A stretch of 39,260 bases of DNA from Chthoniobacterales bacterium (GTDB lineage: Bacteria; Verrucomicrobiota; Verrucomicrobiia; Chthoniobacterales; Terrimicrobiaceae). The DNA lies in assembly GCA_014879575.1 (NCBI GenBank), contig JACSRU010000162.1, positions 1-39,260 of the forward strand. The letters are read 5' to 3'. Under the pieces are notes generated by a model, which worked only from the letters and a program-made list of their open reading frames with translations, was not told where the DNA came from and ran no database searches. This document shows, piece by piece, positions 3,388-38,736 of the stretch. Position 1 is the first letter of the stretch. Each line of letters begins with the position of its first letter. A program made the translations under genes and the position numbers.

Positions 3388-3394
3388 GAATACA

Positions 3395-3537: not shown

Positions 3538-3786
3538 CCAGATTTTTCGCTCCCCTTGATTTTCAAATGTTACAATTTTGTCGCAATTCGAAGCGCGCAC
3601 TTTTGAATGCGCTGGAAGTACGTGCAGCAGAGTCCATTGCGCAGATAATTGAGGATTGAAAGCGCTCGATAAAAAATTGCTCTATTGGGGTTGACGGATC
3701 ACCAGCTCGCGGGCAATCTCCACGCGTTCAGAATCACGTTTTTAAGAAAGTCAAACGAAAATCGTACAAGCGAAAGCCACAAAACC

Positions 3787-3957: not shown

Positions 3958-4033
3958 GGCGTCGTTTTTAGATCGAGAACGCCAGCCGAGGCACCCCCCA
4001 CCGGAAGCTGGCAAACAAAAAACTGACTTCGAA

Positions 4034-4136
4034 TGAACACAGGGGGACACAGTTTGATGAATAGAAGCGGGAGGCATTTGCGCTTCCAGCCTTCTTTTCC
4101 CCCATCTGTGTCATCCATGCCATCTGCGGTTAGATG
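4034..4136. repeat. interspersed dyad repeat, copy 2
   Basis: The left part, GAACACAGGGGGACACAG, lies at 4034-4051. The right part at 4104-4136 (ATCTGTGTCATCC, then GCCATCTGCGGTTAGATG) is the inverted arm. The start codon (4117) of the following secreted protein lies inside the right arm. Confidence 0.6.
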
Positions 4137-18960: not shown

Positions 18961-19854
18961 TCATCCAATCGTCAAGGCATCAAAGTCTGACGAAACGGAG
19001 AGGGTTCCTCTTGGGTCATTCCCTGATTTCAGTGCCTGACGAATGGCGTCTCCAATGAATTTTTGCACGGTCCTCTTCATGGGACGGGCACCCAGGGCCT
19101 TGTGGATTCCGCGTCGTACGAGAAATTCAAAGGCAGGTTCGGCAATGGCGAGATGGAACCCCTGCTGCTGGAAGCGTGCCAGTTCCTCGGAGACGACAAG
19201 ACGGCCGATTTCGCGTTGGGTGTCCGGGGAAAGCGGTCTGAATACGATTTTTTCGTCGAACCGCCCGATGAGTTCGGGACGAAAGACCCGGTGAAGCTCG
19301 CTCAGAACAGCGCGTTCAAGGGTGGCAAACGGGAGGCGGGTCGGTCGCAAAAGCTGCCGGGAGCCGATGTTGCTGGTGCAGACGATATAGAACCCTGAAA
19401 GATCGTAAGTGCGGTGGTCGGCCAGAGTGACGCGGGCGGCATCCAGCATCTGGAGGAACAAATCCCATATCAGGCGATGGGCTTTTTCGATTTCGTCGAA
19501 GAGCAGGACGCCAGTTTGATGGCCGGCTAGAACGCGACCAAGCCGACCCACAGCGCCGGATTCTTCTCCTAGCAGCAATTTTACGGAATCCTGATGCTGG
19601 AATTCGGACATGTCGAAGCGAAAAACCGCATCGCCTCCGAAGAGGTATCGAGAGAATTCGAGCGTCAATTCGGTTTTACCTACTCCTGTCGGCCCGAGGA
19701 ACAGGAGCGATCCCAGCGGCTTGCCGGGCGGCTGCAAACCAAGCAGACCGCGTTCCAACACGGAACAAACGCGGGGAATGACATGGCTCTGGCCTTTAAT
19801 CCTCGAATCAAGATGAGGTTCAAGGTCGTTGAGTTTTTCGATGAGGGAATTCAT
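18961..19854 (-). CDS. single-module Clp/ClpB-type AAA+ ATPase
   Basis: 297 residues, one AAA+ module of the second-domain ClpA/ClpB type. It shows Walker A GPTGVGKT (54-61), FDMSEFQ, Walker B LLFDEIEKAH (117-126), sensor 1 near TSNIG (160-164), the FRPELIGRFD arginine-finger region, and a C-terminal small domain with GARPMKR (sensor 2). It lacks the N-domain and first ATPase module of true ClpA/B and any ClpX zinc domain. ATG 19854 overlaps the coupling-protein gene by 35 bases, so the two are co-translated. Such an unfoldase in a mobilisation operon may remodel the relaxosome; this is inference. Confidence 0.85.
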   Translation of the reverse strand: MNSLIEKLNDLEPHLDSRIKGQSHVIPRVCSVLERGLLGLQPPGKPLGSLLFLGPTGVGKTELTLEFSRYLFGGDAVFRFDMSEFQHQDSVKLLLGEESGAVGRLGRVLAGHQTGVLLFDEIEKAHRLIWDLFLQMLDAARVTLADHRTYDLSGFYIVCTSNIGSRQLLRPTRLPFATLERAVLSELHRVFRPELIGRFDEKIVFRPLSPDTQREIGRLVVSEELARFQQQGFHLAIAEPAFEFLVRRGIHKALGARPMKRTVQKFIGDAIRQALKSGNDPRGTLSVSSDFDALTIG

Positions 19855-21382
19855 GGGTGGTTGCTGATTGAGTTTTTCTGGCCTTGAGCAATTGAAGTAG
19901 CGCGTAATCGGGACGAGCGCGGGTGAACCAAGGGGGAAATGATCCATCAGGGTTGATGGGGGGAATGAACCGCTTGCGGAATGGCTTTTCGCAATGGCGG
20001 ATGATGGCCGTGAACTTCGGCAGCTTTCGCAATTGATACGGCTCGAAGAACGGTTTGATTTTTCGCTGGTAGTTGTATGACCGTTTTCCTCCCGCCCAGC
20101 CCCACGATTTTTCCACGACTTCCCGCTCACCAATGTTCTTGGAGGCGATGACGGCGGAATCGTGATTGGCGACGGTGAAAATCAGTTCATTGCTCAGATT
20201 GAGCATGAGAACGTCCGCGTAGCGTTTATCGAGCGAACCGTGAATGGAGGTGTAGGCTTGGCTGGCGAGCACAATGGTTGCCCGCGCCTCGCGAATCACT
20301 CCCGCCGCCCGATGGTCGGCAAAGGCCGATTCCGCACCCGTAATGATTTCCTGTCCTTCGTCCGCAAACAGGATGATGAGATTGTCCTTTTCCCGTGCCT
20401 CGGCCGATTTGTCGAACCGGCTCAAGGCGTGGAAGTAGTAGGACAGTTTCAGGATGGTATTGATATAGAGACGCTCGCTCTGGAATTTCTGCGGCATGGC
20501 GAGACAGACGATTTTCCCAGCATCGATTCCGGAAACGGAAAATGTCGGCTCGTTGGCGCAGAAGACCTCGGAGATTTCCGGATTTAGGAAAAATTCAAGA
20601 TACGTGCTCAAAGTTCCCTGCACTCCGCCAAGCTGCTCGGGTGGCTGGTCGAGGTAACTGCGAAACGCTGTGATGAGTTCATGGGAACGCTGATCGCCGC
20701 GATTCATGAGGGTTTCAATCGCGGCGTTGGAATCTTCAGCACTGAGCAAGAGCCGATGAATATTCGGAATGGTGACGTAGGCCTCCATGTGTCGGAGAAT
20801 TTCGAACCCGGTCTGGATGGCGAGTTGCGCCTTGGTCGGAAAAAAGGGATTCCCGCCGCGTCCGCCCGTCAATGACACTGCCGTATCCACGATGACTTTC
20901 GCGTAGGTCGAAGCGGGAACATCGGGATTTCCGGTGATATTGATGGTGTGAGGAGGCCGCCAAAGCGCGTTTTCGCCCAGTGGCCGGGTTTGCAGCAAAA
21001 TGAGATCCGCTTCTCGTCCGAAGTGAGCGGCCATTTTGACAAGGATTTCCCAATAGAGGCCCTTTTGATCGAGACAGATGCCGCCCCAGTTCGGCACGTT
21101 CTGAAAAATCTGGAACGTGATGGCATTTATGGCGCATTGCGTTTTTCCTGAGCCGGTGCGCCCGGTGATGAGCCAGCCGCGCACAAAATCTTCCATCGTC
21201 CAGGTGATGCCTCCAAGGTGGAGAACGTTCTTCCCGGAATTATCCGATGCCAATAGACTCCATGCGCCGAATGAAGCGCAAAGACAAATGACAATGAGCG
21301 AGAGAGGCGGGGTGAGCAGGAAATATCCGGCTAGCGCACCAAAGACGCACATCAGGAAAAGAATGGTGTCAGCGATTTTCAT
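19820..21382 (-). CDS. type IV coupling protein (VirD4/TraD-like DNA-transfer ATPase)
   Basis: 520 residues. Two N-terminal membrane helices (about 5-45) are followed by a P-loop domain: Walker A GRTGSGKT (about 74-81) and a Walker B region LIILFADEGQE. C-terminal FEPYQLRKLPKFTAIIRHCEKPF is typical of the type IV secretion system coupling domain. It would bring the relaxase-DNA complex to a mating pore; no pore genes are in the window, so the element is probably mobilised by a helper or is a fragment. Start ATG 21382. The reading frame overlaps the upstream small gene by 14 bases and the downstream ATPase by 35. Confidence 0.88.
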   Translation of the reverse strand: MKIADTILFLMCVFGALAGYFLLTPPLSLIVICLCASFGAWSLLASDNSGKNVLHLGGITWTMEDFVRGWLITGRTGSGKTQCAINAITFQIFQNVPNWGGICLDQKGLYWEILVKMAAHFGREADLILLQTRPLGENALWRPPHTINITGNPDVPASTYAKVIVDTAVSLTGGRGGNPFFPTKAQLAIQTGFEILRHMEAYVTIPNIHRLLLSAEDSNAAIETLMNRGDQRSHELITAFRSYLDQPPEQLGGVQGTLSTYLEFFLNPEISEVFCANEPTFSVSGIDAGKIVCLAMPQKFQSERLYINTILKLSYYFHALSRFDKSAEAREKDNLIILFADEGQEIITGAESAFADHRAAGVIREARATIVLASQAYTSIHGSLDKRYADVLMLNLSNELIFTVANHDSAVIASKNIGEREVVEKSWGWAGGKRSYNYQRKIKPFFEPYQLRKLPKFTAIIRHCEKPFRKRFIPPINPDGSFPPWFTRARPDYALLQLLKARKTQSATTHEFPHRKTQRP

Positions 21383-21620
21383 CAACGGGTTTCGGATTGA
21401 ATGTCGAAGTCAAAAAATCGAAGAGCCTGCGTTCCGGGTCGGGAATGCTTTGCGTGTAGGATTTGAAGTTCACCGTCGTGACGGCAGAGCCGTCCTCGTA
21501 TGACTGGTGAGAAAATCCATCCACGTTGGCCGGTCGGAAGACGAAATTCTGACAGAGAACGAAATCAGAGTTGGTGACTCTGGTGCCGATGGCTGTGTGT
21601 GTGGGCGCTTCGATTGGCAT
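21369..21620 (-). CDS. small hypothetical protein between relaxase and coupling protein
   Basis: 83 residues from ATG 21620, overlapping the relaxase 3' end by 56 bases and the coupling-protein start by 14. The sequence (NSDFVLCQNFVFRPANVDGF, later TTVNFKSYTQSIPDPERRLFDFL) looks like normal protein rather than a frame shadow and ends tightly against the next gene. No family recognised. Position suggests a relaxosome or coupling accessory. Confidence 0.5.
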   Translation of the reverse strand: MPIEAPTHTAIGTRVTNSDFVLCQNFVFRPANVDGFSHQSYEDGSAVTTVNFKSYTQSIPDPERRLFDFLTSTFNPKPVDENR

Positions 21621-22692
21621 AGGAATGGAATCCGTGTTGTTGGGAGTAGCGTTTGTGGGCAGCGCGATACTCGCGCTTGATTTTGAAAAGCAGGTTCTGC
21701 ATTTCCCGGAGCGAACGACGGTCCACGGCAGAGGCGAGTTTTTCCGCCGTCCGGACGAGTTTTGGTTTGGGCCGTCCCCACAACCGAGAGAAAAGATTCG
21801 CGTTGCGCTGCACGGCGATAAACTGCCGCTTTGCGGCGACGGCCGTTTCGAGATTGCGGATGGCTTGGTAGGACTGTTGCAAGCGGATCGCCTCCGCCGT
21901 TTGTGCATTTCGCAAGGCTTCCATGTGGGCCTTGGTGAGGCGCGGTGCGAAGATAATTTTGTCGGAATCCAAGCGTTTGGATAGCTGCTCTTCCAACTCC
22001 TGCGGAGAACTCAGGGCATTTGTCCACCGCTTGTTTTCTTGTTCAAAGCAGGACCGCAAATACGCCATCTGGTTTTTGTGCCCACCGGTCGTAGAACGCG
22101 ACATGCTGCATCCGACGTATGCTCCTTTTTTCGAACGCGGACAGAGCGCAACATGGACATGCAAGTTGTCCGTATCGTGATGAATCCCGAAGGCGTAGCC
22201 GATGGAGTCTGTCGAATGAAAGTGTTCCGCGAATCTCTCCATCACCTTCTTTGTGGTGGAGTGCAAAACGCGGTCGGGATTGACTCCCGCCGCAACCAGT
22301 CTGTCGTGCATTTCGCGAGACATCGAGAAAACGAGCCGGTGCTGAATCACGGGATTCTCCGATGAAGTCGGGAACTTCCGAATGTGTTTGAACCACGCAT
22401 TGGCAATTCGGCGTTTGCGTTCCGTATTCGTCATCTGGGACGGAGCGGTTCGCGTGCCGTCGGAATTTTCAACGATCAGGTGATGAAGAAACCCGCCAGC
22501 GTGAACCTGGCCGAATGTTTCTTTGGAGGCGTAATCGCCAAACTGTTTGAGTTTCTGCCCCAAGCTGGATTTTTTCGTCGCGTCGGTTCGTTCGCGCTGG
22601 GAGATTTTTCGCTGAGACGTTTCGTCGAGATATTCGAGATCGAGCCGCGAGCGCCAGGTGGTTTTTCGTGCGAAGATGATTCCGTTTTTCAT
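21565..22692 (-). CDS. HUH relaxase / mobilisation protein
   Basis: 375 residues. The metal-binding three-histidine motif is in HHDTDNLHVHVAL (His172 or His171, His178, His180). An N-terminal conserved block, HHLIVENSDGTR, and a long basic, helical C-terminus with SRLWGRPKPK fit conjugative relaxases, which nick at oriT and stay bound to the 5' end. An N-terminal tyrosine candidate is Y21 or Y54; which one acts cannot be told. ATG 22692 overlaps the preceding mobC-like gene by ATGA. The cognate oriT is expected close upstream, inside or next to the structured region. Confidence 0.85.
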   Translation of the reverse strand: MKNGIIFARKTTWRSRLDLEYLDETSQRKISQRERTDATKKSSLGQKLKQFGDYASKETFGQVHAGGFLHHLIVENSDGTRTAPSQMTNTERKRRIANAWFKHIRKFPTSSENPVIQHRLVFSMSREMHDRLVAAGVNPDRVLHSTTKKVMERFAEHFHSTDSIGYAFGIHHDTDNLHVHVALCPRSKKGAYVGCSMSRSTTGGHKNQMAYLRSCFEQENKRWTNALSSPQELEEQLSKRLDSDKIIFAPRLTKAHMEALRNAQTAEAIRLQQSYQAIRNLETAVAAKRQFIAVQRNANLFSRLWGRPKPKLVRTAEKLASAVDRRSLREMQNLLFKIKREYRAAHKRYSQQHGFHSYANRSAHTHSHRHQSHQL

Positions 22693-22919
22693 AGCGAGTC
22701 GTTGAGACGTTCGAGAACGCGGTCGAGTTTGGAATCCATGCCGGTGAGGATTTGCGGATCGATTTTGTCCTTGATCGAAACCGCAAAAAGGATTGCTTCG
22801 AAGGTCGCCGCCCTGCTGGGCAGAGCGAACGCCTGGTGGAGGGCTTGAAAGCGCGAATGCGCTTCGGTGGTGCAGTCCACATGGAACTGCTTGATGCCGG
22901 GTTTCTTTTGATACGCCAT
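22689..22919 (-). CDS. MobC-like relaxosome accessory protein
   Basis: 76 residues from ATG 22919. Basic N-terminus (MAYQKKPGIKQFHVDCTTEAHSRFQALHQ is written in part only: KKPGIKQF, then EAHSRFQAL), then RAATFEAILFA and a C-terminal heptad-like DPQILTGMDSKLDRVLERL, consistent with a ribbon-helix-helix protein with a dimerising tail. Its ATGA overlap with the relaxase gene supports a relaxosome role. An upstream extension to 23051 has no protein character. Confidence 0.7.
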   Translation of the reverse strand: MAYQKKPGIKQFHVDCTTEAHSRFQALHQAFALPSRAATFEAILFAVSIKDKIDPQILTGMDSKLDRVLERLNDSL

Positions 22920-23271
22920 TTTAGTTAATGAGGTTAAGTATTTATTTCGACGGATGGAGTTTGGTGAGCGGCAGCGAGTCTTTCCGAAGGGCGCCTGACG
23001 CCCGAAGGAACCAAGGAAAAACTGAGTTTTTTCCGACCCCGTGATTTCCAACGGAAATCGCTATCCTGTATGACATGTGACCTACGAAGCAGGTTGATGA
23101 GGTCAGGACTGGCAGGGTGCCGGAAAGCGTTCATCGGGTTGAACGCTGGGGGTGAAAGGGCTGTCGTTCTTCGTGTTTTACGTTCCGTGGCATCCGTCGT
23201 ATGGGACGGCAAAGCAAGCCAAGTCTTGAGATCACTTTCGTCTCGTCGCGGAGATGGGCAAGCGAGGAATC

Positions 23272-23595
23272 CCGATGGTGCGGGAGGTAGATTGCGTCCA
23301 TCGGACTGGATAAATCCGCCGATTCGTTGCGCCCGGAGTCGTGCCGACAGGCCGAACGAGGACGCAACGAATGGGCGGACCATTCCCGAGAATTCGGCAA
23401 AGCTGTGGCGAGTTGCGGCGTCTGCGATGGACGAAGGGCAGCAGAGCGCCTGGAGGCCTGAGCAGTGGCCGCAACCTGCCGCGACCAGCACACAATTGGG
23501 CAGAAATGCCAGAATATGAGCAGGTCGGTTTCCGGTGGAGTCGCCGATTGAAGAGAGGTTGGGAGCGAAGCGGACGGCCTTCTTCAATGGGAGAC
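23272..23595 (+). repeat. structured unit 1 of tandem duplication
   Basis: Diverged copy paired with 23720-24047. The best base-level match is 23523-23550 against 23973-24000 (GGTCG.TT.CCGGT..G then TCGCCGATTG). Elsewhere pairing is kept better than sequence. The central stem arms are offset by 450 and 457 bases, so its inner loop differs in length. Confidence 0.7.
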
Positions 23596-23719
23596 CGTGG
23601 CGAAGATCGCCTTCCGAGGTGGGCTGATTTGCAGGGTTGACGGTGGCGGCCACGGCGAGAGGTCGAAGACGTGGCCAGACATCGGCGATCCTGCAAATGA
23701 GCGAAAGGCTTGCCGGGAC

Positions 23720-24047
23720 TGGCATCGGTAAGCTCGCAAATGGAGATGGTCGAAAGGTGACAGCGCCGAACCGTTCCGCCCGCAGCCGGGTATCGGGGCG
23801 AAGGGGCGAGGACGGAATGACTGGGCGCGCGAAGCCAAGGAGGTCGGGAGAGTTGTGCTGATGAGCGGACTGAGTGAAGAAGAGCAGGGCAAGAGGTCGC
23901 CAGCCCTGCCTCCCGGAGCAGAGGCCGCTCATGAGCACATTCATCGCCGGGATGCGGGATTGAGTATCTGCTGGTCGTTTCCCGGTAAGATCGCCGATTG
24001 CAAAATGGCATGGAGCGAAGCGGGGGCCTTTTTGCAATGGGCGATTC
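23720..24047 (+). repeat. structured unit 2 of tandem duplication
   Basis: Counterpart of unit 1. Its terminal hairpin (23989-24047) is the longest: GATCGCC, a G-G mismatch, ATTGCAAAA/TTTTGCAAT, then GGC/GCC. A related but shorter hairpin at 23126-23133/23140-23147 (AGCGTTCA/TGAACGCT) before unit 1 could be the end of a third, mostly lost unit. Confidence 0.7.
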
Positions 24048-24192
24048 GGGCGCAAGTCGTCATCAAAAGTAAGCTGATGGGACGGAGACGGTAGGCACGT
24101 GGGGCAAGCCTGCGCCGCCCCCGGTGCCGTCAGCGGCTCCGGCCCATGAGCGGGAAACAACCGCGGATGCGCCATACTTGAGCGGCAACTCG

Positions 24193-25191
24193 TCATAACC
24201 CGATGCCCTGCTTGCGAGGTTTTGCATCCGCCCGGTGGCCGGGAGTGAAAGCGGGGATCCGGGCTCTCACGACTGCCTTGTTTACCACGCCGACCGGCAT
24301 CTCTTCAGGGGAAGTCAGGCTTTCGGCCAGGGACTCTTTTTGCTCGATACCGAGAACGAAATCCGCGCTCTTCTGGGCTTGCGACGCAGCGGACACGATC
24401 ATCCGGGGGTCGTTTTCGAGCTTTTCAATCCATGACGCAAGGTAGGCAGCCGAGTTATCGAACTGGACTTGATTGAGAATCCCGGCCTCGTTCGAGAGGA
24501 ATGCCGCGCCGAGTTCCGCAATCAGTTCCTCCTTAGAATACCGCTCCGAACCGAACTTGACCGGCTGGGTGATCCCCTCGCGGTCCAATCGAGATAGATG
24601 CCCGGTGGCATGGGTCATTTCGTGAAAAAGTGTATGAAAATAATCCTCTTGGCTGCGGAAGGTGCTCGGTGCGGGAAGGCGAATCACGTCGTCCTTCGGC
24701 GAATAAATGGCTGCGAACCCGGCATGATGGACCGGGCAGAGCTTGGCGTTTTCTACGATGGCAGCCGCCTTCTCGAAGGGCTGCCCGGCGTTCTGCGTGG
24801 TTGCAATCTCGGGAGGTTCAATGCCCTCGGTCTGATCGAGATTGAAGACGTTCGCCCAGCGAATAAAGGGAATCCGGTCCGGACGTCCATCCTCGCGCAC
24901 CACCGGGCGACCAGCAGCGTCCTGTTTTTCGAGAAGTTTGTAGTAGATGACCGGCAGGGATTTTTCGCCCTTCTTCACATGTCCCCCAAGGTCCAAGGCC
25001 TGTTTGAAGGTCAGCCAGAACGGGGATGTGCGATCTGTCATCCCCAGCGTGAACGCATTGATTCCGCGATACGGTTTCCGGGAAACGATATTCTGAACGC
25101 AGCTCGTCCACGGTTGTTGCCAAGGGACGGAGCCTTTCTTCAACTGCTCCAGAAACCGTTCCGTGATGGACTGGTAGATGTCGCGGTTCAT
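24193..25191 (-). CDS. ardC: ArdC-like antirestriction protein
   Basis: 332 residues. The N-terminal ssDNA-binding domain (about 1-125) shows PWQQPW, SRKPYRGINAFTL, PFWLTFKQA, GGHVKKGEKS and VFNLDQTEG. The C-terminal zinc-metallopeptidase-like domain has HEMTHATGH (H190, E191, H194) and the third ligand region EELIAELGAAFL (E226). ArdC proteins protect incoming plasmid DNA from restriction. That suits a mobilisation module. Start ATG 25191 overlaps the preceding small gene by ATGA. The C-terminal 60 residues are a low-homology tail. Confidence 0.93.
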   Translation of the reverse strand: MNRDIYQSITERFLEQLKKGSVPWQQPWTSCVQNIVSRKPYRGINAFTLGMTDRTSPFWLTFKQALDLGGHVKKGEKSLPVIYYKLLEKQDAAGRPVVREDGRPDRIPFIRWANVFNLDQTEGIEPPEIATTQNAGQPFEKAAAIVENAKLCPVHHAGFAAIYSPKDDVIRLPAPSTFRSQEDYFHTLFHEMTHATGHLSRLDREGITQPVKFGSERYSKEELIAELGAAFLSNEAGILNQVQFDNSAAYLASWIEKLENDPRMIVSAASQAQKSADFVLGIEQKESLAESLTSPEEMPVGVVNKAVVRARIPAFTPGHRADAKPRKQGIGL

Positions 25192-25418: not shown

Positions 25419-25682
25419 TCACAACCGCTGGCCGTGACAGATCGTGTTGATGATTTTGCCGAGGTCCTCCTTCCGAACGGGAATCGGCGAAACATTGAGG
25501 CCGGGGTCAATGCGTCCATGGGCGTCACAAACCCAGCAGTCTGCAACAAAGGCATCACGGGGAATGTCCCTTGATGCGGGGGTGTAGCAGTTGAACCGCG
25601 CGGCGGTCGCCGAAGCGTCTTTTAGCCCCGACTTCGTGCGATAAATCGCACCGAAAATGAAGTTCGGGAGTTTGTCAGACAT
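25419..25682 (-). CDS. small hypothetical protein
   Basis: 87 residues from ATG 25682, which overlaps the 3' end of the primase-like gene by eight bases. The body reads PNFIFGAIYRTKSGLKDASATAARF, then FVADCWVCDAHGRI and PVRKEDLGKIINTI, with a C..C pair but no complete zinc motif. No family recognised. An extension to 25739 overlaps the primase gene more and was not chosen. Confidence 0.5.
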   Translation of the reverse strand: MSDKLPNFIFGAIYRTKSGLKDASATAARFNCYTPASRDIPRDAFVADCWVCDAHGRIDPGLNVSPIPVRKEDLGKIINTICHGQRL

Positions 25683-26655
25683 GAGAGAGGAGTTCTCTTC
25701 GATTTTTAACGGCAGGTTGGTCGGCAAGGAGATCCGCATTCCAGTCCTTGCGCTTCGGGCAGTCGGAGGAAATCTTGAAGCCCGCCCAATCTGCGGTTTG
25801 GTCCCATGCAGCCCTCCAGCCCGTTTCCCCGGCGCTGTCGTTATCGAGTGCGACCATCAGGGACTGGCGACGGGTATAGACCTGATTGAGAAGTTCGTCT
25901 GGAATGTGGCACCCGGCGCAACTGACGATGGCAATCTGGTTGGATGGCTTGAGCTGGTAGTAGCTCACCGCGTCGATTGGGGACTCGACCGCCACAATTT
26001 GGGTCGCATTGAGCGGATCTCCCACAGAAAACCATGCGCTTGTTTTGTTTCCCAGACATGGGCGGAACGTCGATTCGTGGCGGGTATCGCGGAGCGTCGC
26101 CCCTTCGACTTTCCCCTCTATCGTGCGGTGAATGAAGACAAGGCTCGGGTTCGGACGGTGGTTGTTGGCATAGATCAATCCACGGTCATGCAATGGATCG
26201 ATCAAATCCGGATCAAGACCCCGCGCATTCACAAGGTAATCGCGGGCGATCGACCAATTGCCTTCATTTGCCAAGGCATACTGAGAGGCCAGTTCCTCGA
26301 ACGAGCGCCGAATCGGGAAGGATTTGCGAACCCGACTGTCCGGGAATGCCAAGCCGCCAACTTCTGGCCGAAACTGCTCGGCCAGAACCCTGCATGTCGC
26401 TCGAAAGTCACCGCCACAGAGGTGCATCTGAAGATCAATCGCTCCTGCGCCGCCGACACCGGCCCGGTTATCGAACCACTTCTCACCATTGATGACGATG
26501 TTGTAGCGATCATCCTTCGCGCGAAAGCTGACACCCTCGCGCTTCAGCTTGAATCCGTGCCACGTGAGTAAGTCGCCCAAGGGAATCGACCGCACCCGGT
26601 CGGAAATGCGATCTGCACTGCTGGCACCTGCCAGCCTGAATTCCTCCGCGTTCAT
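25675..26655 (-). CDS. DUF3991/TOPRIM primase-like protein
   Basis: 326 residues. The N-terminal part resembles the DnaG-type/DUF3991 layout (IPLGDLLTWHGF, then YNIVINGEKWFDN, then GAGAIDLQMHL), without the CHC2 zinc cysteines. The TOPRIM core has the glutamate in VAVESPIDAVSYY (E224) and the acidic DxD-like LMVALDNDSAGETGW (D271, D273). Such proteins prime or process DNA during replication of plasmids and mobile elements. TAATG overlap with the upstream HTH gene. Confidence 0.85.
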   Translation of the reverse strand: MNAEEFRLAGASSADRISDRVRSIPLGDLLTWHGFKLKREGVSFRAKDDRYNIVINGEKWFDNRAGVGGAGAIDLQMHLCGGDFRATCRVLAEQFRPEVGGLAFPDSRVRKSFPIRRSFEELASQYALANEGNWSIARDYLVNARGLDPDLIDPLHDRGLIYANNHRPNPSLVFIHRTIEGKVEGATLRDTRHESTFRPCLGNKTSAWFSVGDPLNATQIVAVESPIDAVSYYQLKPSNQIAIVSCAGCHIPDELLNQVYTRRQSLMVALDNDSAGETGWRAAWDQTADWAGFKISSDCPKRKDWNADLLADQPAVKNRRELLSHV

Positions 26656-27860: not shown

Positions 27861-28718
27861 ATGACACTGCGTGAGAAACTTGCCCGAATCGGCCTTCGCT
27901 CAGCGTTGGATACCCGGCAGGAAGCCAATACATCCTGGTCTGATCCCATTTGCATCTACGATTTTGTTGAGCGGATGGGCACGGAAGTGTGGTTTGTCGG
28001 CGGCGCAAGTTTCGCCGGCATGTATGCAAAAGGATATGGTCGGCTGTTCGTCCCCGCGGAGCGCCCGGTCGGACGGAAGGCGTTTACCTGCGCCCATGAG
28101 CTGGCGCACCTGCGATTTGACCACGGTTCGAGAGTAGAAGAACTCGAATTCGATCGATCGGACAATGAGGTTCCCGATGAGATGCTAGCCAACATTTATG
28201 CAGCCCATCTTCTGATGCCCCGTCAAGCGGTGGAAACCGCATTCTCCCGCCGCAATAGTCCTCCCGAAAAAGCCGGTCCAATCGACTTCTACTGTGTGGC
28301 GAACCAGCTTGGAGTGGGCTACGAAACGCTTCTCAAACACATGCATTGGTCTCTCAGAATGATCGAATATGCGAAGTTGCAGGAGTTGCTGGCCGTGTCA
28401 CCAAAAGACATCCGAAAAATACTTCTGGGAAGGGATGGAAGTCCTCATCTGATTTTTGCTACGGAGCATTGGCACAAGGTCGCCATTGATCTGGAAATTG
28501 GTGATTATGCCATCATTCCCCGAAACGCCCAACTAAATGGGCCATCGGCGAAGTTGGTCGGCATTTGCTCGTATGGGCAAGTTGTCGAAGGCGTGAAAAC
28601 AGGAATTTCGCAGGCCATGATCTGCGAGGGTGATTGGGCGGCGATGATTCGGGTAAGCCGACGGCAGTTCGCCGGGCGTTGTATTTACCGCCACATGGAG
28701 GACTCAGATGAAGACTAA
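27861..28718 (+). CDS. ImmA/IrrE-family metalloprotease
   Basis: 285 residues. Zinc motif HELAHLRFDHG (79-89) with HExxH at 79-83 and a third ligand likely in NIYAAHLLMP. By analogy with ImmA of ICEBs1 and IrrE/DdrO, it would cleave the adjacent XRE repressor on a signal such as DNA damage. The C-terminal 130 residues (from LQELLAVSP) form an extra domain that could be the sensor. Start ATG 27861 rather than the upstream in-frame codon, which lies inside the regulator gene. Overlaps the next gene by 11 bases. Confidence 0.88.
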   Translation: MTLREKLARIGLRSALDTRQEANTSWSDPICIYDFVERMGTEVWFVGGASFAGMYAKGYGRLFVPAERPVGRKAFTCAHELAHLRFDHGSRVEELEFDRSDNEVPDEMLANIYAAHLLMPRQAVETAFSRRNSPPEKAGPIDFYCVANQLGVGYETLLKHMHWSLRMIEYAKLQELLAVSPKDIRKILLGRDGSPHLIFATEHWHKVAIDLEIGDYAIIPRNAQLNGPSAKLVGICSYGQVVEGVKTGISQAMICEGDWAAMIRVSRRQFAGRCIYRHMEDSDED

Positions 28719-29547
28719 TATTCCAAAAACAATTTCCGAATCGAATCTCTCACTTGCCTGGGCCGAAGCATTTCTTCACGTCCTGAACGGCGGCGAGTCC
28801 GATTGTCTTGTAGTTGCGTTGCGAGATTTCCCGGATGCCCTGCCACCCCAAGACAATCTGATCGCGAGTGCTGTTGATGAAGCACTGGGAAAAGCCGAAA
28901 TTCCTTTAATCAAACAAACTGCATTTACGATCGTTCCATACGAACGCTGGCTGCGAACCGGGAAACCGGACATAGTGACGCTCAGCGATTGGTATTTGAC
29001 GGCACTCCTGCCCCGCCTGAAGGCTCGTTGCACCAAAAATCGCTATGGCACTTATTTTGAAAGACTCGTTGGGTATTCAGGTTTGAGGACGGTATCGGGA
29101 CGCGAGGAGGTCCGAACGATCAACCAACTGGAATTCGTTATTTCCCTTTGGAAAAAGGGCGAGGAAAAAGGCCGCCGTCCCCGGCGCTCCGCGCTCCAAC
29201 TCGCATGTTTCGATCCTGCAAAGGATGATACGGGATCTGCCCTTGCAGGATTTCCTTGCTTACAGCAAATCAGCCTTACCTATCATGAGTCTGGCACTTT
29301 AGAGCTGAACGCATTCTATCCGACACAGTATGTCTTTGATCGCGCCTATGGGAACTATCTCGGGCTGTGCCAGCTTGGTCATTTTTTGGCCGATCAACTT
29401 GGTTTGAAATTTACGGCATTTACATGCTTCGTCGCTCATCCCGAACTCGGTCACGGGAATCAATCCAGCCATGCAAAAATGGCTGCCTTCCTTCGAGAAC
29501 GGATCGCGACGTTTCGTGCTTCGGAGACTGCGGAAGTCTCGAAGTAA
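28708..29547 (+). CDS. divergent thymidylate-synthase-fold protein
   Basis: 279 residues. No standard family is obvious, but the C-terminal half follows the thymidylate-synthase layout: FPCLQQISLTYH at the place of the PCH catalytic loop (C184), then LNAFYPTQYVFDRAYGNYLGL at the place of the Y.RS.D...G.P.N block, then LGHFLADQLGL, FTCFVAHPEL. The usual RS and the substrate-binding Asn context are altered, so activity on dUMP is doubtful. It may use another nucleotide or be structural. Start ATG 28708. Call by pattern only; a structure prediction would be decisive. Confidence 0.55.
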   Translation: MKTNIPKTISESNLSLAWAEAFLHVLNGGESDCLVVALRDFPDALPPQDNLIASAVDEALGKAEIPLIKQTAFTIVPYERWLRTGKPDIVTLSDWYLTALLPRLKARCTKNRYGTYFERLVGYSGLRTVSGREEVRTINQLEFVISLWKKGEEKGRRPRRSALQLACFDPAKDDTGSALAGFPCLQQISLTYHESGTLELNAFYPTQYVFDRAYGNYLGLCQLGHFLADQLGLKFTAFTCFVAHPELGHGNQSSHAKMAAFLRERIATFRASETAEVSK

Positions 29548-29593
29548 CTCTCAGCGTAAAGTCTGCGAAGTCATCATTAGCTGTAACGTGATT

Positions 29594-30202
29594 ATGGAGA
29601 AAACCGGCAAATTGATTGTATTTGAAGGCGCGGACGGCGTTGGGAAGTCCGCAATTTGTTCAGCCTTCGTCAAAGCGCTGCAAGATCGAGGAACTAATGT
29701 GGAACACCTGTCATTTCCAGGAAAAGACGCGGGAACTTTGGGGAAACTGGTATATCGGATGCACCACGATTCCGCGGAATGTGGAGTAACCAGCCTGACT
29801 CCTGCGAGCTTGCAGGCGCTGCACATTGCAGCGCATTTGGACGCGATTGAACGCGTCATACTTCCGGCCCTCAAAAGCGGAGTGTGGGTCGTTCTGGATC
29901 GATTCTGGTGGTCCACCTGGGTATATGGGGTAATCGACAATATTCGGCATGATGTCTTATCTGCTCTGGTGGAAGTTGAACTCTGCATCTGGGGTAGCTG
30001 CAAACCGAGCGCGCTGTTTTACATCACTCGTGATCAACCTTTGCGGGAAGAGCCGTTGGAGCGGTGGAAAGGATTAAAATCAGCCTACGAAGAACTGATA
30101 CATCGGGAGGGAGGAAAGTATCCGATCCATCCAATTCTGAACGAATCTACGGTGGGTAGCGCCGTTGAACGGGCCGGAAGTATGATTGGCCTTGCTCGAT
30201 GA
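29594..30202 (+). CDS. dTMP-kinase-like P-loop nucleotide kinase
   Basis: 202 residues. Walker A GADGVGKS (12-19), FPGKDAGTLGKL in place of the FPRY-type segment, DR motif VVLDRFWWSTWVYG (102-103) as in thymidylate kinases, and a lid region with EEPLERWKGLKSAYEEL. In phage hypermodification systems a similar P-loop kinase phosphorylates 5-hydroxymethyl-deoxyuridine. Here it may act on the modified nucleotide or on DNA. ATG 29594 chosen; the upstream frame overlaps the previous gene. ATGA overlap with the next gene supports a common complex. Confidence 0.85.
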   Translation: MEKTGKLIVFEGADGVGKSAICSAFVKALQDRGTNVEHLSFPGKDAGTLGKLVYRMHHDSAECGVTSLTPASLQALHIAAHLDAIERVILPALKSGVWVVLDRFWWSTWVYGVIDNIRHDVLSALVEVELCIWGSCKPSALFYITRDQPLREEPLERWKGLKSAYEELIHREGGKYPIHPILNESTVGSAVERAGSMIGLAR

Positions 30203-31293
30203 AATTCGTGCGACGTCATTCCTGTGCTGCTCGCGACGAGCAACCCGAGCTCGGAAATTTTAATACGCAGGTGCCACGTATGGTATTGGAATCAACATTT
30301 CGATTTCTGCGTCCGTTAAAACCTACGGTCGTCTTTGCAACCTACTGGAAGTTTGCGGTTGAACGGCAGGAGGTATTCTTCCGAAGAATATTGGGAGACG
30401 AGCCGCCTTGGTCATCCGATCCGGTGCTGCGGCAGTATAAATTTACAAATGCGTATCGGGCAGCGGATCGTGTGAGTCAATTTTTGATTCGCCACGTCAT
30501 TTACGAAGGGGACGCCGATCCGCGCGAAACTCTTTTCAGAATTATTTTGTTCAAATTTTTCAATCGGATCGAGACATGGGAGCTTCTCACGAGGAACTTT
30601 GGAGAAGTAGCACTCTCCTCTTATTCCTTCGAGGTTTACAACAAGGTCATGACAGAGGCGTTGTCTGCGGGTCAAAAACTATACTCGGCCGCCTACATCA
30701 TGCCGTCTGGCGGTCCTAAGTCTCCATACGCAAGAAAACACCAAATGCATCTTCGGTTGTTGGAACAGATGACTCAGGACGAACTTGCCATGAGGATAGT
30801 AGAGTGCTCATCAATGTCGAAAGCATTTGCGCTCCTTCGTTCCTACCCCTCGATTGGCGACTTTCTTGCCTATCAATATGTTACCGACTTGAACTACAGC
30901 AATTTGACCAATTTCAAAGAAATGGAATTTGTTGTTCCAGGGCCGGGAGCCTTGGATGGGATCAGAAAGTGTTTTACTGATTTGGGCGGACTGTCTGAAG
31001 CAGAAGTAATAAAGTTCATTGCCGAACGGCAGGATGAATGCCTGGCTGCGTTGGGGCTTCGCTTTCCTACTTTGTGGGGAAGACGTCTTCAACTGATCGA
31101 TTGCCAAAACCTTTTTTGTGAAGTGGACAAGTATGCACGAATTGTTCATCCCGAGTTTTCGGGACGCTCTGGGCGAACCCGAATCAAACAAAAGCTGCAA
31201 CCATCACCAAAAAAGTTGGAACTCTGGTTTCCGCCGAAGTGGGGCATCAATGAGTTCCTTCACAAACCACCAGAATATGTTCCACATAGTTGA
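30199..31293 (+). CDS. 5-hmdU DNA kinase helical-domain / thymine pyrophosphorylase-like protein
   Basis: 364 residues. The signature of this DNA-hypermodification family is strong: YWKFAVERQEVFFRR (about 49-63), PPWSSDPVL, YKFTNAYRAADRVSQ, FKFFNRIETWELL, LYSAAYIMPSGG, LRSYPSIGDFLAYQYVTDLNY and FVVPGPGALDGIRKCF. Family knowledge: these proteins (earlier grouped with alpha-glutamyl/putrescinyl thymine pyrophosphorylases) act after a dUMP hydroxymethylase and with a P-loop kinase to activate 5-hydroxymethyl-uracil in DNA for further substitution. Both partners are the adjacent genes here. The first 27 residues are not conserved-looking; M28 is an alternative start. Confidence 0.85.
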   Translation: MKFVRRHSCAARDEQPELGNFNTQVPRMVLESTFRFLRPLKPTVVFATYWKFAVERQEVFFRRILGDEPPWSSDPVLRQYKFTNAYRAADRVSQFLIRHVIYEGDADPRETLFRIILFKFFNRIETWELLTRNFGEVALSSYSFEVYNKVMTEALSAGQKLYSAAYIMPSGGPKSPYARKHQMHLRLLEQMTQDELAMRIVECSSMSKAFALLRSYPSIGDFLAYQYVTDLNYSNLTNFKEMEFVVPGPGALDGIRKCFTDLGGLSEAEVIKFIAERQDECLAALGLRFPTLWGRRLQLIDCQNLFCEVDKYARIVHPEFSGRSGRTRIKQKLQPSPKKLELWFPPKWGINEFLHKPPEYVPHS

Positions 31294-32293
31294 AGCAGAA
31301 ACAGCAGACGAACTTTGGCGGGAAGCCGCTCAATGGTTTGCGGACGAGGGTGCCTCCAAACAGGAGGGGCGTGGGGGCCCTACTGCAGAGATTCTTCGTG
31401 CCGGCCTGTCGTTGCGTAATCCTCGCCAAAGATGGGTGGCATCACGCGTGCCCGCAATAAATCCTGCATTCGCAATCGCGGAGGTCGTGTGGATCGTAGC
31501 CGGGCGTCGAGATTCGGAGTTTCTTAATTTTTTCAACCCAAGTTTACCAAAGTATCAGGGCGTTGGCCCAATTTACGGTCGTTCCTATGGTTACAGACTC
31601 CGAGAGCATTTCGGCCTCGATCAACTACATCGAGCTTGCACGGTTTTGCGGACGAATACTGATTCCCGGCAGGTTGTCTTGCAAATTTGGGATTCGGCCT
31701 CGGATTTGCCATTGGAGGACGGCTCTCCTCAAGGTCCAGATATTCCCTGCAATATCGTCTCATTGTTAAAAATAAGAAATGGCAGGCTTGAGTGGACACA
31801 AATCATGCGGAGCAATGATTTATTCCGGGGCCTACCTCACAATATTGTACAGTTCACTTGTCTCCAAGAAGTAATGGCTGGATGGCTAGGTGTCGATCTT
31901 GGGAGCTACAACCATTTCAGCGACAGTCTTCACCTTTATCATAATGATGGCACTGTGTCTGAACGGCTAGAACCTTTCGCGCTGGCGAAAAATCCGGATG
32001 ACCTTGCACTCCCAAAAAATGAATCGGACAGAGCGTTTATTCAGCTAGGGGAGTTCGCGAATTTGCTTGTTTCAACCGACAGAAAATCGGCTGATATAGA
32101 CTATGCATTCGGAAAGTTAGAACTCCCTGCGGCCTATCTCAATTTGGCGGCTGTACTGGCTGCCGAAGCGTTGCGCAGAAGGGAAGATAATGCCGAATCA
32201 CAAAGAATGATCGAGAACTGCACCAATTCCTGCTTAATTCAACTATTCAATCGTTGGAACGCAAGAGTGTCTGCTCGCCGTCTGACGGTGTAA
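31250..32293 (+). CDS. thymidylate synthase / dUMP hydroxymethylase family protein
   Basis: 347 residues. Clear ThyA-fold motifs: IYGRSYGYRL (108-117), catalytic Cys167 in PDIPCNIVSLLK, MRSNDLFRGLPHNIVQFTCL (186-205; RS.D..G.P.N), NHFSDSLHLY. The usual PCH is PCN, and the substrate-specific region differs from housekeeping ThyA, as in dUMP hydroxymethylases. I therefore expect 5-hydroxymethyl-dUMP rather than dTMP as product, but sequence alone cannot prove it. Start ATG 31250 (a GTGGGG ribosome site precedes) overlaps the previous gene by 44 bases; ATG 31277 is possible. 32294-32479 after it has no gene, only the right copy of the 24-base repeat. Confidence 0.85.
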   Translation: MSSFTNHQNMFHIVEAETADELWREAAQWFADEGASKQEGRGGPTAEILRAGLSLRNPRQRWVASRVPAINPAFAIAEVVWIVAGRRDSEFLNFFNPSLPKYQGVGPIYGRSYGYRLREHFGLDQLHRACTVLRTNTDSRQVVLQIWDSASDLPLEDGSPQGPDIPCNIVSLLKIRNGRLEWTQIMRSNDLFRGLPHNIVQFTCLQEVMAGWLGVDLGSYNHFSDSLHLYHNDGTVSERLEPFALAKNPDDLALPKNESDRAFIQLGEFANLLVSTDRKSADIDYAFGKLELPAAYLNLAAVLAAEALRRREDNAESQRMIENCTNSCLIQLFNRWNARVSARRLTV

Positions 32294-33038: not shown

Positions 33039-33113
33039 TGGTGCGCGATACAGGGTTCGAACCTGCGACTTCCTGCGTGTGAAGCAGGCGCTCTACCACT
33101 GAGCTAATCGCGC
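33039..33113 (-). tRNA. tRNA-Val(CAC)
   Basis: The minus strand gives a complete cloverleaf: acceptor GCGCGAT/ATCGCGC, D-arm TTAGCTCAGTGGTAGAGC, anticodon stem CCTGC/GCAGG with loop TTCACAC (anticodon CAC, reads GUG), T-arm with GGTTCGAACC, discriminator A and an encoded CCA (33041-33039). It is followed by a terminator. Its 5' half and leader are duplicated at the end of the window. Confidence 0.96.
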
Positions 33114-35723: not shown

Positions 35724-36593
35724 ATGCCCTCCTACCTTTTCCTCTGGAACCCGACCAAGGACACCCATTCGTTTCGGGACTATGACCGAGTTCAGGCGAT
35801 GGCCAAGGCCGGCAAGCCCTATGACACCGGCTGGATTTGTCCCTCACGGCAGCCGCGTCCCGGCGATGTCGCCTTCTTGCAGCGCACAGGTCCAAAGAGC
35901 AACGGAGTTTTCGCAAGAGGGGTCGTCACTCGTGGGGCTTACGAAAGCGAGGACGGCGTCAGGATAGTGCGCCTGCGCCTTGAGGCGTTCCTCCCCATTG
36001 GGCGGGAAGTCCCTCGCTCCAGCATAATCGCGCACGCCAAGTGGCGATCACCGTGGATGCCCATGTCTTCGGGCAACGTCATTCCGGACCCAATCGTCCG
36101 GTCTATCGAAGCACTTTGGGCGGTTGCGATCCGTGGTGATGGGGAGTCGGTCCTACACCCCGATGAGGTTGCTACGCCTTCGCAGTTCCTTGAGGGTGCG
36201 ACTCGTCAAGTATCCGTGAACCGCTACGAACGCAATCCATACGCACGTCAGCAGTGCATTGAGCATTACGGCTGCGGATGTTCCGTTTGTGGCTTCGATT
36301 TCGAGGCAGTGTATGGCGAGCTTGGCAGCGGGTTCATTCACGTTCACCATCTGAAGGCGCTGGCCGAGATCGGGCGAGAGTATGAGATCGATCCGGTTTC
36401 TGATTTGCGGCCGATCTGCCCGAATTGTCACGCGATGATTCACCGGCGGGAGGAGATGATGACGATTGAGGAGTTGAGAGAGTTGATTCAGACCCGAGTG
36501 AAAACGCCGAACAAGGGTGCTGCACCGAATGGCGGCCCCGCTACGCAGTTTGGCAATTCGAGCGTCACGGAGGGGCCGCCATCGGTGAGCTGA
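35724..36593 (+). CDS. EVE/PUA-like reader fused to HNH endonuclease (cassette 3)
   Basis: 289 residues. The N-terminal 130 residues look like an EVE/PUA-type domain (YLFLWNP, TGWICPS, RPGDVAFLQRTG, GVFARGVV), a fold that reads modified bases. The C-terminal HNH domain (about 160-255): VNRYERN, CSVCGFDF (186-193), FIHVHHLKAL (204-213), ICPNCHAMIH (231-240). The combination suggests a modification-dependent (type IV) restriction enzyme. The tail from about residue 262 is encoded by attC-like site C. Confidence 0.85.
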   Translation: MPSYLFLWNPTKDTHSFRDYDRVQAMAKAGKPYDTGWICPSRQPRPGDVAFLQRTGPKSNGVFARGVVTRGAYESEDGVRIVRLRLEAFLPIGREVPRSSIIAHAKWRSPWMPMSSGNVIPDPIVRSIEALWAVAIRGDGESVLHPDEVATPSQFLEGATRQVSVNRYERNPYARQQCIEHYGCGCSVCGFDFEAVYGELGSGFIHVHHLKALAEIGREYEIDPVSDLRPICPNCHAMIHRREEMMTIEELRELIQTRVKTPNKGAAPNGGPATQFGNSSVTEGPPSVS

Positions 36594-36604
36594 ATCGCAA
36601 AAAA
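36506..36604 (+). other. attC-like site C
   Basis: GCT-g-CACCGA-a-TGGCGGCC (36519-36537) pairs with GGCCGCCA-TCGGTG-AGC (36574-36590) leaving exactly two extra bases on one arm. Left box GCCGAAC (36506-36512). The right core after 36590 is degenerate (no GTTRRRY). Confidence 0.65.
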
Positions 36605-36642
36605 TACCAGACAACACTTCGATGATCGGTTAATCTCCCACC

Positions 36643-36834
36643 ATGACGACCAAATTCACCTACTGGCAGGAAGATGACGGAAAGTTTCTTGGTTATCTGA
36701 ACGACTTTCCTGAGCACTGGACACAGGGGGAATCCCTGCAGGATCTCAAGGATCACCTTCGGGACCTCTACGAAACCTTTTCCGAAGGACACCTTCCGGG
36801 GATCAAGAAAGTAGAAGAATTAGAATTGGCGTGA
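36643..36834 (+). CDS. hicB: HicB-family antitoxin
   Basis: 63 residues. KFTYWQEDDGKFLGYLNDFP and TQGESLQDLKDHL, then DLYE are the short HicB pattern (a degraded RNase H-like fold without a DNA-binding tail). The GTG of hicA overlaps its stop. HicB binds and blocks HicA. Gene order here is antitoxin first. Confidence 0.9.
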   Translation: MTTKFTYWQEDDGKFLGYLNDFPEHWTQGESLQDLKDHLRDLYETFSEGHLPGIKKVEELELA

Positions 36835-37010
36835 AGAGGCGCGAGTTGATTTCTAAGCTCGAATCTGCAGGTGCTGTTCTCCTTCGTCATGGAGGGAAAC
36901 ACGACATTTACCACAACCCCAAGACCGGAATCACGCAGCCGATTCCTCGGCATAAGGAGATAAACGAGCTTCTTGCACGCAAAATTCTCCGAGACCTCAC
37001 AAAAGAATAA
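36831..37010 (+). CDS. hicA: HicA-family mRNA interferase toxin
   Basis: 59 residues from GTG 36831 (overlaps the hicB stop by four bases). RRELISKLESAGAVLLRHGG, then KHDIYHNP and IPRHKEINELLARKILRDL match the HicA double-stranded-RNA-binding fold; the catalytic His is in GGKHDIY. It cleaves mRNA when free of HicB. Intact by length. The stop TAA is two bases before attC-like site D. Confidence 0.92.
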   Translation: MKRRELISKLESAGAVLLRHGGKHDIYHNPKTGITQPIPRHKEINELLARKILRDLTKE

Positions 37011-37012
37011 AA

Positions 37013-37124
37013 CGCGAACCAGCCAGTCCACCGAATCCCGTGCCTTCGGCACTTCTGGCATTTCGGCTGCGGAGCAGCCTCGGATGCTAGAAGCAAGCGG
37101 TATCGGTGACTGGGAGCGTTGGGC
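37013..37124 (+). other. attC site D
   Basis: 112 bases. Right core GTTGGGC (37118-37124). CCAGT-c-CACCGA-a-TcCCG (37023-37040) pairs with CGGTATCGGTGACTGG (37098-37113) leaving unpaired bases on one arm. The 91 bases between arms match site E at 88 positions. Confidence 0.85.
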
Positions 37125-37180
37125 AAAAATACACCACCATCCGTGATTGACCCCGCCGCCTAGTGTGTCACCATTCCCCC

Positions 37181-38143
37181 ATGAAGCAATTGACCGCAGT
37201 CGAACTTTGCGCCGGGGCCGGAGGCCAAGCCCTTGGACTTGAACAGGCGGGCTTCCACCATGCGGCATTAGTTGAGATCGACCCGAATTGCTGCAACACA
37301 CTCAGAAAGAACAGAAAAGAATGGAATGTCATCGAACAGGATTTGAGGAAATTCGATGGGACGCCATACAAAGGCGCAGATTTGCTTGCGGGCGGGCTAC
37401 CCTGCCCACCCTTTTCCGTGGCGGGCAAGCAACTTGGCGATGCAGACGAAAGGAATTTATTTCCAGAGGGGATTCGACTCGTGAAGGAGATTCGCCCCCG
37501 TGCTGTGATGATCGAAAACGTCCGGGGGATTTTGGATGCCGTTTTTGAAGATTATAGGCGATATATTTCAGGTGAGATTGCTTCCCTTGGCTATCGCACC
37601 GATTGGCGATTGATGAGTGCTTCTGACTACGGTGTTCCCCAGCTTCGCCCCCGTGTAGTTTTTATCGCTTTACGTGAAGATATTAAGGGTGGGTTTCCGT
37701 GGCCCGCACCATCCCTCTTGCCTCCTCCCACAGTCGGCGAGACTCTTCATGACTTGATCGCTGCCAATGGATGGGGAATGGCTGCTGATTGGCGCATTCG
37801 CGCCAATCAAGTGGCCCCCACGATTGTTGGCGGCTCCAAGAAGCATGGCGGCCCAGATCTAGGCCCTACTCGCGCCAAGCGCGCTTGGGCATCGCTCGGA
37901 GTTGACGGCATGGGGATTGCCAATGATGCGCCGGATACAGATTTTGTCGGGATGCCCCGTTTGACTGTCCGCATGGTGGCACGGCTTCAGGGTTTTCCTG
38001 ACGATTGGCAGTTTTCGGGCAGTAAAACCGCTGCTTATCGTCAAGTGGGGAACGCATTTCCGCCGCCGGTGGCGGCGGCTGTTGCCTCCGGCATTTTTAC
38101 TCGGTTGCGCGAATCGGCTTATCCGAAGTTGGCTGTTGCTTGA
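37181..38143 (+). CDS. DNA (cytosine-5) methyltransferase
   Basis: 320 residues. C5-methylase motifs in order: I ELCAGAGGQALGLEQAG, IV GGLPCPPFSVAGK (catalytic Cys in PC), VI MIENVRG, VIII PRVVFIA, X YRQVGNAFPPPVA. ATG 37181 begins the protein just before motif I; the upstream frame to 37163 is short. Its stop overlaps the region of the HNH nuclease start, so the pair is probably a type II restriction-modification system in one cassette. The recognition sequence cannot be predicted. Confidence 0.95.
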   Translation: MKQLTAVELCAGAGGQALGLEQAGFHHAALVEIDPNCCNTLRKNRKEWNVIEQDLRKFDGTPYKGADLLAGGLPCPPFSVAGKQLGDADERNLFPEGIRLVKEIRPRAVMIENVRGILDAVFEDYRRYISGEIASLGYRTDWRLMSASDYGVPQLRPRVVFIALREDIKGGFPWPAPSLLPPPTVGETLHDLIAANGWGMAADWRIRANQVAPTIVGGSKKHGGPDLGPTRAKRAWASLGVDGMGIANDAPDTDFVGMPRLTVRMVARLQGFPDDWQFSGSKTAAYRQVGNAFPPPVAAAVASGIFTRLRESAYPKLAVA

Positions 38144-38148
38144 TCTTT

Positions 38149-38736
38149 ATGGGAGCGCGAGACAATCTCAGGGCGCATTTTCTCAAGCATGTTGGAAAGG
38201 TGATGGATTCCAATGAACTCCGAAAGATTGCCGGAGGCATCACTGAATGGGCACGCCGAGTGCGCGAGTTAAGGACGGAAGAAGGGTATCAGATTCTCAC
38301 CCATAATGACCGGGATGATTTGAAGCCCGGTCAGTATCTTCTGCTTGACCCAGCCCCGAAACCCGCGTTCGAACGCACGATTTCCAAGGAGACGAGAGCG
38401 TTTGTTTTGGACCGGAATGGCTTTACATGCCAAATGTGCGGAGCAGTAGCAGGCGAACCACACCCAGAAGACCCAAGCAGAAGAACCCGCCTACATATCG
38501 GGCATATTATTGACAAGTCTGTTGGCGGCACTGACGACCCAAATAATCTTCGGGCGATTTGCTCGGTTTGCAACGAGGGCGCATCGAATATCACCTTGCA
38601 ACGCCCCAAGGCTGACAAGCTGTTGATTCAGATTCGCCGTGCCCCCAGCTCAGATCAGCTTGAAGTGCTGAAGTGGCTTATCACGAAATTTCCCAAGCAA
38701 GCGACTGAACAAATTGGTCGCCATGACAAAAAATAA
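38149..38736 (+). CDS. HNH restriction endonuclease paired with the C5-methylase
   Basis: 195 residues. An N-terminal helical part is followed by a winged-helix-like segment (GYQILTHNDRDDLKPGQYLL) and the HNH nuclease: FTCQMCGA, LHIGHIIDKSVGGTDDPNNL, AICSVCNEG (zinc CxxC pairs around the GH catalytic motif). Such enzymes are partners of m5C methylases in type II systems. ATG 38149 (TTG 38140 overlaps the methylase stop). Downstream lies attC site E. Confidence 0.88.
   Translation: MGARDNLRAHFLKHVGKVMDSNELRKIAGGITEWARRVRELRTEEGYQILTHNDRDDLKPGQYLLLDPAPKPAFERTISKETRAFVLDRNGFTCQMCGAVAGEPHPEDPSRRTRLHIGHIIDKSVGGTDDPNNLRAICSVCNEGASNITLQRPKADKLLIQIRRAPSSDQLEVLKWLITKFPKQATEQIGRHDKK

Follow-up and report, generated by a model that had tools for sequence, protein, structure and literature searches.

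Tandem two-hairpin modules beside a predicted origin of transfer in Verrucomicrobiota, a candidate single-stranded DNA element

What is the strongly structured, tandemly repeated DNA that lies among the mobilisation genes of a Verrucomicrobiota bacterium, and does its structure serve an RNA or the DNA itself? The stretch analysed here (the window) is a contig of 39,260 bases from the 3.6-Mb genome of a Terrimicrobiaceae host (Verrucomicrobiota). The original prediction had placed at positions 23106-24047 a large structured RNA, or single-stranded DNA, made of two diverged units of about 450 nt. The second of these alternatives bears on a little-described stage of conjugation, since the fate of the transferred single strand on entry is understood for few elements, namely F, ICEBs1 and rolling-circle plasmids.

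In the order of minus-strand transcription, the surrounding genes encode a Toprim/DUF3991 primase-like protein and ArdC, followed, beyond the array, by a 76-amino-acid ORF, a relaxase, a TraD/TrwB-like coupling protein and an AAA protein. The main ones are:

25675 to 26655, minus strand: DUF3991/Toprim_2 primase-like protein of the leading region
24193 to 25191, minus strand: ArdC anti-restriction protein, first gene of the leading region
22689 to 22919, minus strand: 76-amino-acid ORF in the position of mobC, with no Pfam match
21565 to 22692, minus strand: relaxase, MobA/VirD2-like (MOBP-type), with an invariant HHDT..LHxH motif
19820 to 21385, minus strand: coupling protein, TrwB/TraD-like

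PF03432 (MobA/VirD2-like) was matched by 10 of 11 relaxase members, with a best E of 8e-7; the relaxase of the window itself stays below the Pfam cut-off. The same contig carries a DNA-hypermodification-like cassette (28708-32293 and 35724-38736), with thymidylate-kinase-like, 5-hmdU DNA kinase helical domain (364.7 bits) and thymidylate-synthase-like genes, then an HNH protein and a C5-cytosine methylase. At another locus (L144, G051:C111:26000-38000, about 1832-5207) ardC is split by an insertion, the matches to residues 1-194 and 194-290 lying about 3.4 kb apart.

Between the 76-amino-acid ORF and the array, the plus strand at 23043-23068 reads GATTTCC-aac-GGAAATC-GC-TATCCTG/T, where the slash marks the predicted nick:

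23043 to 23059, plus strand: inverted repeat GATTTCC-aac-GGAAATC of the relaxase-binding type, directly 5' of nic, recognised in the sequence and equally placed in the homologues
23062 to 23068, plus strand: nic core TATCCTG, predicted from the MOBP consensus to be nicked after 23068

The MOBP nic consensus of RP4 and the VirD2 family is (C/T)ATCCTG(C/T), with an inverted repeat 5' of nic (PMC3772185). A nic core, an inverted repeat just 5' of it and an adjacent MOBP relaxase are thus all present in the window, and the 5'-proximal repeat and the core before a MobA/VirD2-like relaxase are shared with RP4 and VirD2; the difference is that in half of the loci found here the core at this place is of a second kind, TTTGCYC. 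A nic-like core occupies a fixed position before the relaxase in all 20 loci, as TATCCYG in 10 and TTTGCYC in 10, and on the relaxase tree it switches between these two flavours no more than twice, a number as low being reached in none of 500 shuffles. This is the behaviour expected of a real oriT that evolves with its enzyme. Described MOBP oriTs are not known to include a long array of modules on their leading side. The array begins about 100-250 nt 3' of nic across the loci. In one locus (L154) the distance from nic (977) to the module (1431) is 454 nt, which suggests an inserted gene, and a similar-looking stretch follows nic in L351 and L352. Since the relaxase remains attached to the cleaved 5' end (PMC3772185), nicking at 23068/23069, as predicted from the sequence, would make the plus strand the transferred strand (T-strand) and bring the array first into the recipient; this assignment of the array depends on the predicted nic.

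The tandem repeat described by the original prediction is real, and its unit is smaller. It is a module of about 225 nt, made of a short hairpin, an invariant linker of 36 nt and a long hairpin, each hairpin typically with a G.G mismatch, and the window has four of them with a period of 224-226; the two units of about 450 nt correspond to modules 1+2 and 3+4. The array starts after the oriT and runs to about 24151, beyond the predicted end. Its parts are as follows, z being the folding energy relative to dinucleotide shuffles:

23315 to 23379, plus strand: module 1 short hairpin, G.G 23321/23373, z -5.8
23374 to 23409, plus strand: module 1 linker, 36 nt
23402 to 23490, plus strand: module 1 long hairpin, diverged or degenerate, lacking the G.G (23410/23482), weak, z -1.2
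23541 to 23594, plus strand: module 2 short hairpin, G.G 23546/23589, loop GCGAAGC at 23565-23571, weaker, z -2.3
23623 to 23702, plus strand: module 2 long hairpin, G.G 23626/23699, z -6.7
23764 to 23832, plus strand: module 3 short hairpin, degenerate (about 23770/23823), weak, z +1.2
23854 to 23939, plus strand: module 3 long hairpin, G.G 23860/23933, z -4.4
23990 to 24045, plus strand: module 4 short hairpin, G.G 23996/24039, loop GCGAAGC at 24015-24021, z -5.2
24073 to 24151, plus strand: module 4 long hairpin (D3), G.G 24076/24148, source of the covariance model R1 (10 loci), z -4.2

Five of the eight hairpins fold far better than their shuffles (z -4.2 to -6.7) and three are weaker. The compensatory swaps reported between the repeats were recovered on re-reading the sequence: C-G at 23316/23378 for G-C at 23763/23828, G-C at 23329/23365 for C-G at 23776/23815, A-T at 23551/23584 for C-G at 24001/24034, and G-C at 23553/23582 for A-T at 24003/24032. 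The terminal loop said to be conserved, GGAGCGAAGCGG, occurs exactly twice, at 23562 and 24012.

A DNA search yielded further copies in the same genome (contig C142), several in genome G012, one in G003 and one in G051. The model R1, built on the 3'-most hairpin, added a more diverged group from another family of the order at 41-49 bits; these loci, picked without regard to context, mostly have the same neighbours, with ArdC 66-72% and relaxase 54-58% identical. One more locus was found by the module pattern (G057:C10) and one by the relaxase search (G012:C39). The same arrangement is thereby present in three families of one Verrucomicrobiota order, from which all loci come, several of them from the single MAG G012 and some ending at contig edges. 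A sample of the phylum (388 genomes) gave no match outside the order, and three matches outside it in a sample of the class, obtained with the module pattern, were rejected, complementary arms being absent by eye. The D3 pattern gave three matches, possibly by chance, in records labelled Pseudomonas, Proteobacteria and Burkholderiaceae, which are not Verrucomicrobia. Among the matches listed for the short loop and linker patterns in viral contigs, all were treated as chance; the longer D3 pattern gave none there, and the relaxase search gave no viral relatives. Against 72,556 plasmid records, the array had no similarity (blastn, E ≤ 1) and the relaxase no match (tblastn). Relaxase relatives in other families (L335, L345, L336 and L337) keep the nic-like site and lack the module, which is therefore not essential to this type of relaxase. 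About 200 nt 3' of nic, one of these distant relatives (L337, G706:C204) has a different structured leading region, in which a hairpin, CGCAAT[G]ACCGTCAGCG/CGCTGATGGT[G]ATTGCG, likewise contains a G.G mismatch in this single sequence.

The geometry of the modules is strict at some points and loose at others. Hairpins with a G.G mismatch between paired arms number 42 on the plus strand versus 3 on the minus strand in 17 arrays, with the consensus GCC[G]ATT..AAT[G]GGC for the short hairpin and GCT[G]ATT..AAT[G]AGC for the long one. When the step between hairpins was scanned from 25 to 49 nt, 23 modules appeared at step 37, no other step gave more than 5, and the minus strand gave none; modules beyond this set were placed by eye from the step of 37 and the conserved motifs. 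The linker is 36 nt long in 32 of 32 modules, with a mean identity of 54% (43% over its middle 25 nt). The spans between the mismatched bases vary (37-52 nt in the short hairpin, 62-80 nt in the long one), as do the distances between modules (57-108 nt) and the number of modules, which is four in the window, L145 and L152, two in L139-L142 and one in the remaining loci. The plus strand folds better than the minus strand in all 17 loci, an advantage that fits single-stranded DNA and RNA alike. Loops of the form GCGNAGC were counted 14 times on the plus strand and twice on the minus strand of the non-redundant set (shuffles: mean 4.6, maximum 11 in 300), and their N can be A, C, G or T. As DNA, GCGAAGC forms a mini-hairpin with a GNA loop whose stability and resistance to nucleases are extraordinary (PMC4686876).

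What is conserved in the hairpin modules is shape rather than sequence. In the homologues of the 3'-most hairpin 95% of the cells are paired, a value that falls to 34-47% in slid controls, and 7 pairs are altered on both sides versus 2.2 in shuffles (none of 500 reaching 7). The short-hairpin stem has both sides altered in 9 of its 10 pairs, with 54 cells versus 17 in shuffles (0/500), and the long-hairpin stem has 27 cells versus 6.6 (0/500); the outer arms of the long hairpin hardly vary and hence add no support. The shuffles ignore relatedness, but the slid controls preserve it and also fall far short. The claim that base pairing is kept, and with it that of a structured, tandemly duplicated plus-strand element within a mobilisation module, is supported by these data.

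Comparison with described systems gave partial likenesses. The Rfam scan found no match at E ≤ 1 in the array, as expected from the statement that it belongs to no known family, and only a tRNA (33042-33113) in the whole window. With the large ornate RNAs GOLLD, ROOL and OLE the array shares its size, GC-richness, covariation and association with mobile elements; it differs by being modular, variable in copy number, sited at an oriT and without Rfam match. A parallel in position is sso1 of ICEBs1, which lies 3' of oriT, has three stem-loops in about 200 bp, resembles the sso's of rolling-circle plasmids and owes this location, it was argued, to an adaptation of integrating elements (PMC4595007). 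Both are structured, strand-specific, intergenic sequences with several stem-loops that follow oriT on its 3' side, on the strand that an integrative element transfers, and the array has its stem-loops on the strand that would become single-stranded if nic is as predicted. However, it repeats a two-hairpin module in tandem, with G.G mismatches and a linker fixed at 36 nt, its function would be deduced by analogy, and none of the 72,556 plasmid records, which should include the known plasmid sso's, resembles it. Frpo of F-like plasmids lies upstream of the gene that it drives and carries -35, -10 and UP boxes, leading-region genes using the T-strand as template (PMC11541004); single-stranded ssi sites are attributed there to Masai and Arai 1997. 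T-strand secondary structure in the leading region is common to Frpo, ssi and the array, and ardC and the primase-like gene would use a T-strand template. In contrast to Frpo, the array comes after the 3' end of ardC as transcribed, not upstream of a leading gene, and a sigma-70 scan found no -35/-10 boxes at it. No sequence resembling known sso, ssi or Frpo was identified, and on the tests made the array would fall outside the known sso or Frpo classes. Readings as attC, REP or group II intron were dropped, the conserved sequences of these elements not being apparent.

The minus strand of the array is crossed by an open frame, which also spans nic:

22934 to 24196, minus strand: 'bridge' ORF, 420 codons, antisense to the array

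Its ATG overlaps the ardC stop by 4 nt (ATGA, 24196-24193), and its TAA (22936-22934) stands 14 nt ahead of the next start codon, before the mob genes. The frame is open in every homologue, which neither the original prediction nor our follow-up had anticipated: it has 0 stops in 17 arrays, versus 39 and 56 in the other two minus frames (0 versus 24 and 29 in the non-redundant set, about 5e-10 if stops were evenly distributed). An ATG or GTG start overlapping the upstream TGA, [AG]TGA, is present in 14 of the 16 loci scored, whether the upstream gene is ArdC or a different protein. In L139-L142, where another protein replaces ArdC, the same ...GIGL* end and [AG]TGA overlap are found, so that the junction stays the same when the leading gene is exchanged. 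Four module-less relaxase relatives (L351, L352, L355 and L356) also have a minus-strand frame open across the nic region, which suggests that the bridge frame predates the array or is the more general feature.

An ordinary minus-strand gene for a 420-residue protein, with the hairpins as by-product, would explain the open frame and its conserved start overlap. The original prediction had named a codon pattern of protein selection on this frame as a refutation, and no amino-acid selection was found. Substitutions are spread evenly over the codon positions (29/26/24 for L163-L165 and 31/30/30 for L160-L169), unlike those in the relaxase of the same pairs (39/14/125 and 96/72/168); several pairs contain internal indels of 1-2 nt that throw the phase off until it is restored further on; the product has no Pfam or NCBIfam match; and the hairpin stems covary on both sides. 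We regard a protein gene as very improbable and dropped it on the codon data. Since the frame is kept open with no codon-position bias, selection appears to act on translation across the array and not on the amino-acid product. The simplest reading is that ribosomes would have to follow RNA polymerase through the array, avoiding polarity on the mob genes.

The structure on the plus strand might instead belong to a large modular non-coding RNA that works in trans or regulates the ardC-mob operon as an antisense transcript. An RNA gene would be expected to show covariation and plus-strand G-T wobbles, and an invariant linker with conserved mismatches would suit a tertiary fold. For the array itself, the single-stranded DNA offered as an alternative by the original prediction seems the better choice, and we consider it probable that the array acts in cis as single-stranded DNA, on the T-strand of an element that is conjugative or mobilisable. 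We prefer it because the array lies directly 3' of nic on the transferred strand in all loci, because the module number varies from one to four as in a cis-acting site, because many apical loops obey the GNA rule of DNA mini-hairpins, because neither a -10/-35-like pair (sigma-70 consensus scan) nor an intrinsic terminator (simple scan) was found on the plus strand at the array, and because the opposite strand belongs to a translated operon, any plus-strand RNA being antisense to a frame kept open for translation. The RNA half of the original prediction is thereby rendered unlikely, although GNA triloops can form in RNA and a plus-strand RNA would give the same G-T bias. A double-stranded or cruciform site for loading the relaxosome or coupling protein, at which the hairpin pairs would extrude or bind accessory proteins in the donor before transfer, is more doubtful still: adjacency to nic and the inverted repeat, an iteron-like variation in module count and an exact spacing suited to a protein complex speak for it, but neither the strand asymmetry (G.G on the plus strand, mirrored by C.C on the minus strand, and better plus-strand folding throughout) nor stems that covary instead of keeping their sequence would be expected of double-stranded DNA.

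As a single-stranded DNA element, the array could work as follows. The relaxase would nick at 23068/23069 and stay on the 5' end, and the plus strand would lead into the recipient with the array among the first DNA to enter. There the array would fold into one to four two-hairpin modules, with G.G hairpins, a rigid 36-nt linker and hyperstable GNA tips, and a protein working on the incoming strand would dock at each module. This protein would most likely start complementary-strand synthesis, as at single-strand origins or ssi/Frpo sites, and might be the host RNA polymerase, the host primase or the Toprim primase-like protein of the element. A primer laid at the array would, against this role, be copied toward the 5' end and be useful only after recircularisation. 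Alternatively, the array might protect the 5' end, load a protein that is transferred, or serve the relaxosome in the donor. On the opposite strand, where the array is part of the ardC-to-mob operon, the open frame would let ribosomes trail RNA polymerase and thereby secure expression of the mob genes.

Tentatively, and with less confidence than we place in the T-strand reading itself, the array may represent an undescribed class of single-stranded DNA element, in which tandem G.G two-hairpin modules with a 36-nt linker occupy the leading end of the T-strand and are crossed by a drifting frame that only ferries ribosomes over the oriT. The bridge ORF would be an example of a reading frame conserved as a frame and not as a protein, and the locus is a warning that large covarying structures at an oriT can pass for RNA genes. 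For the Verrucomicrobiota, the array provides a defined and testable candidate, in which the mismatch, the linker length and the module number can be varied individually.
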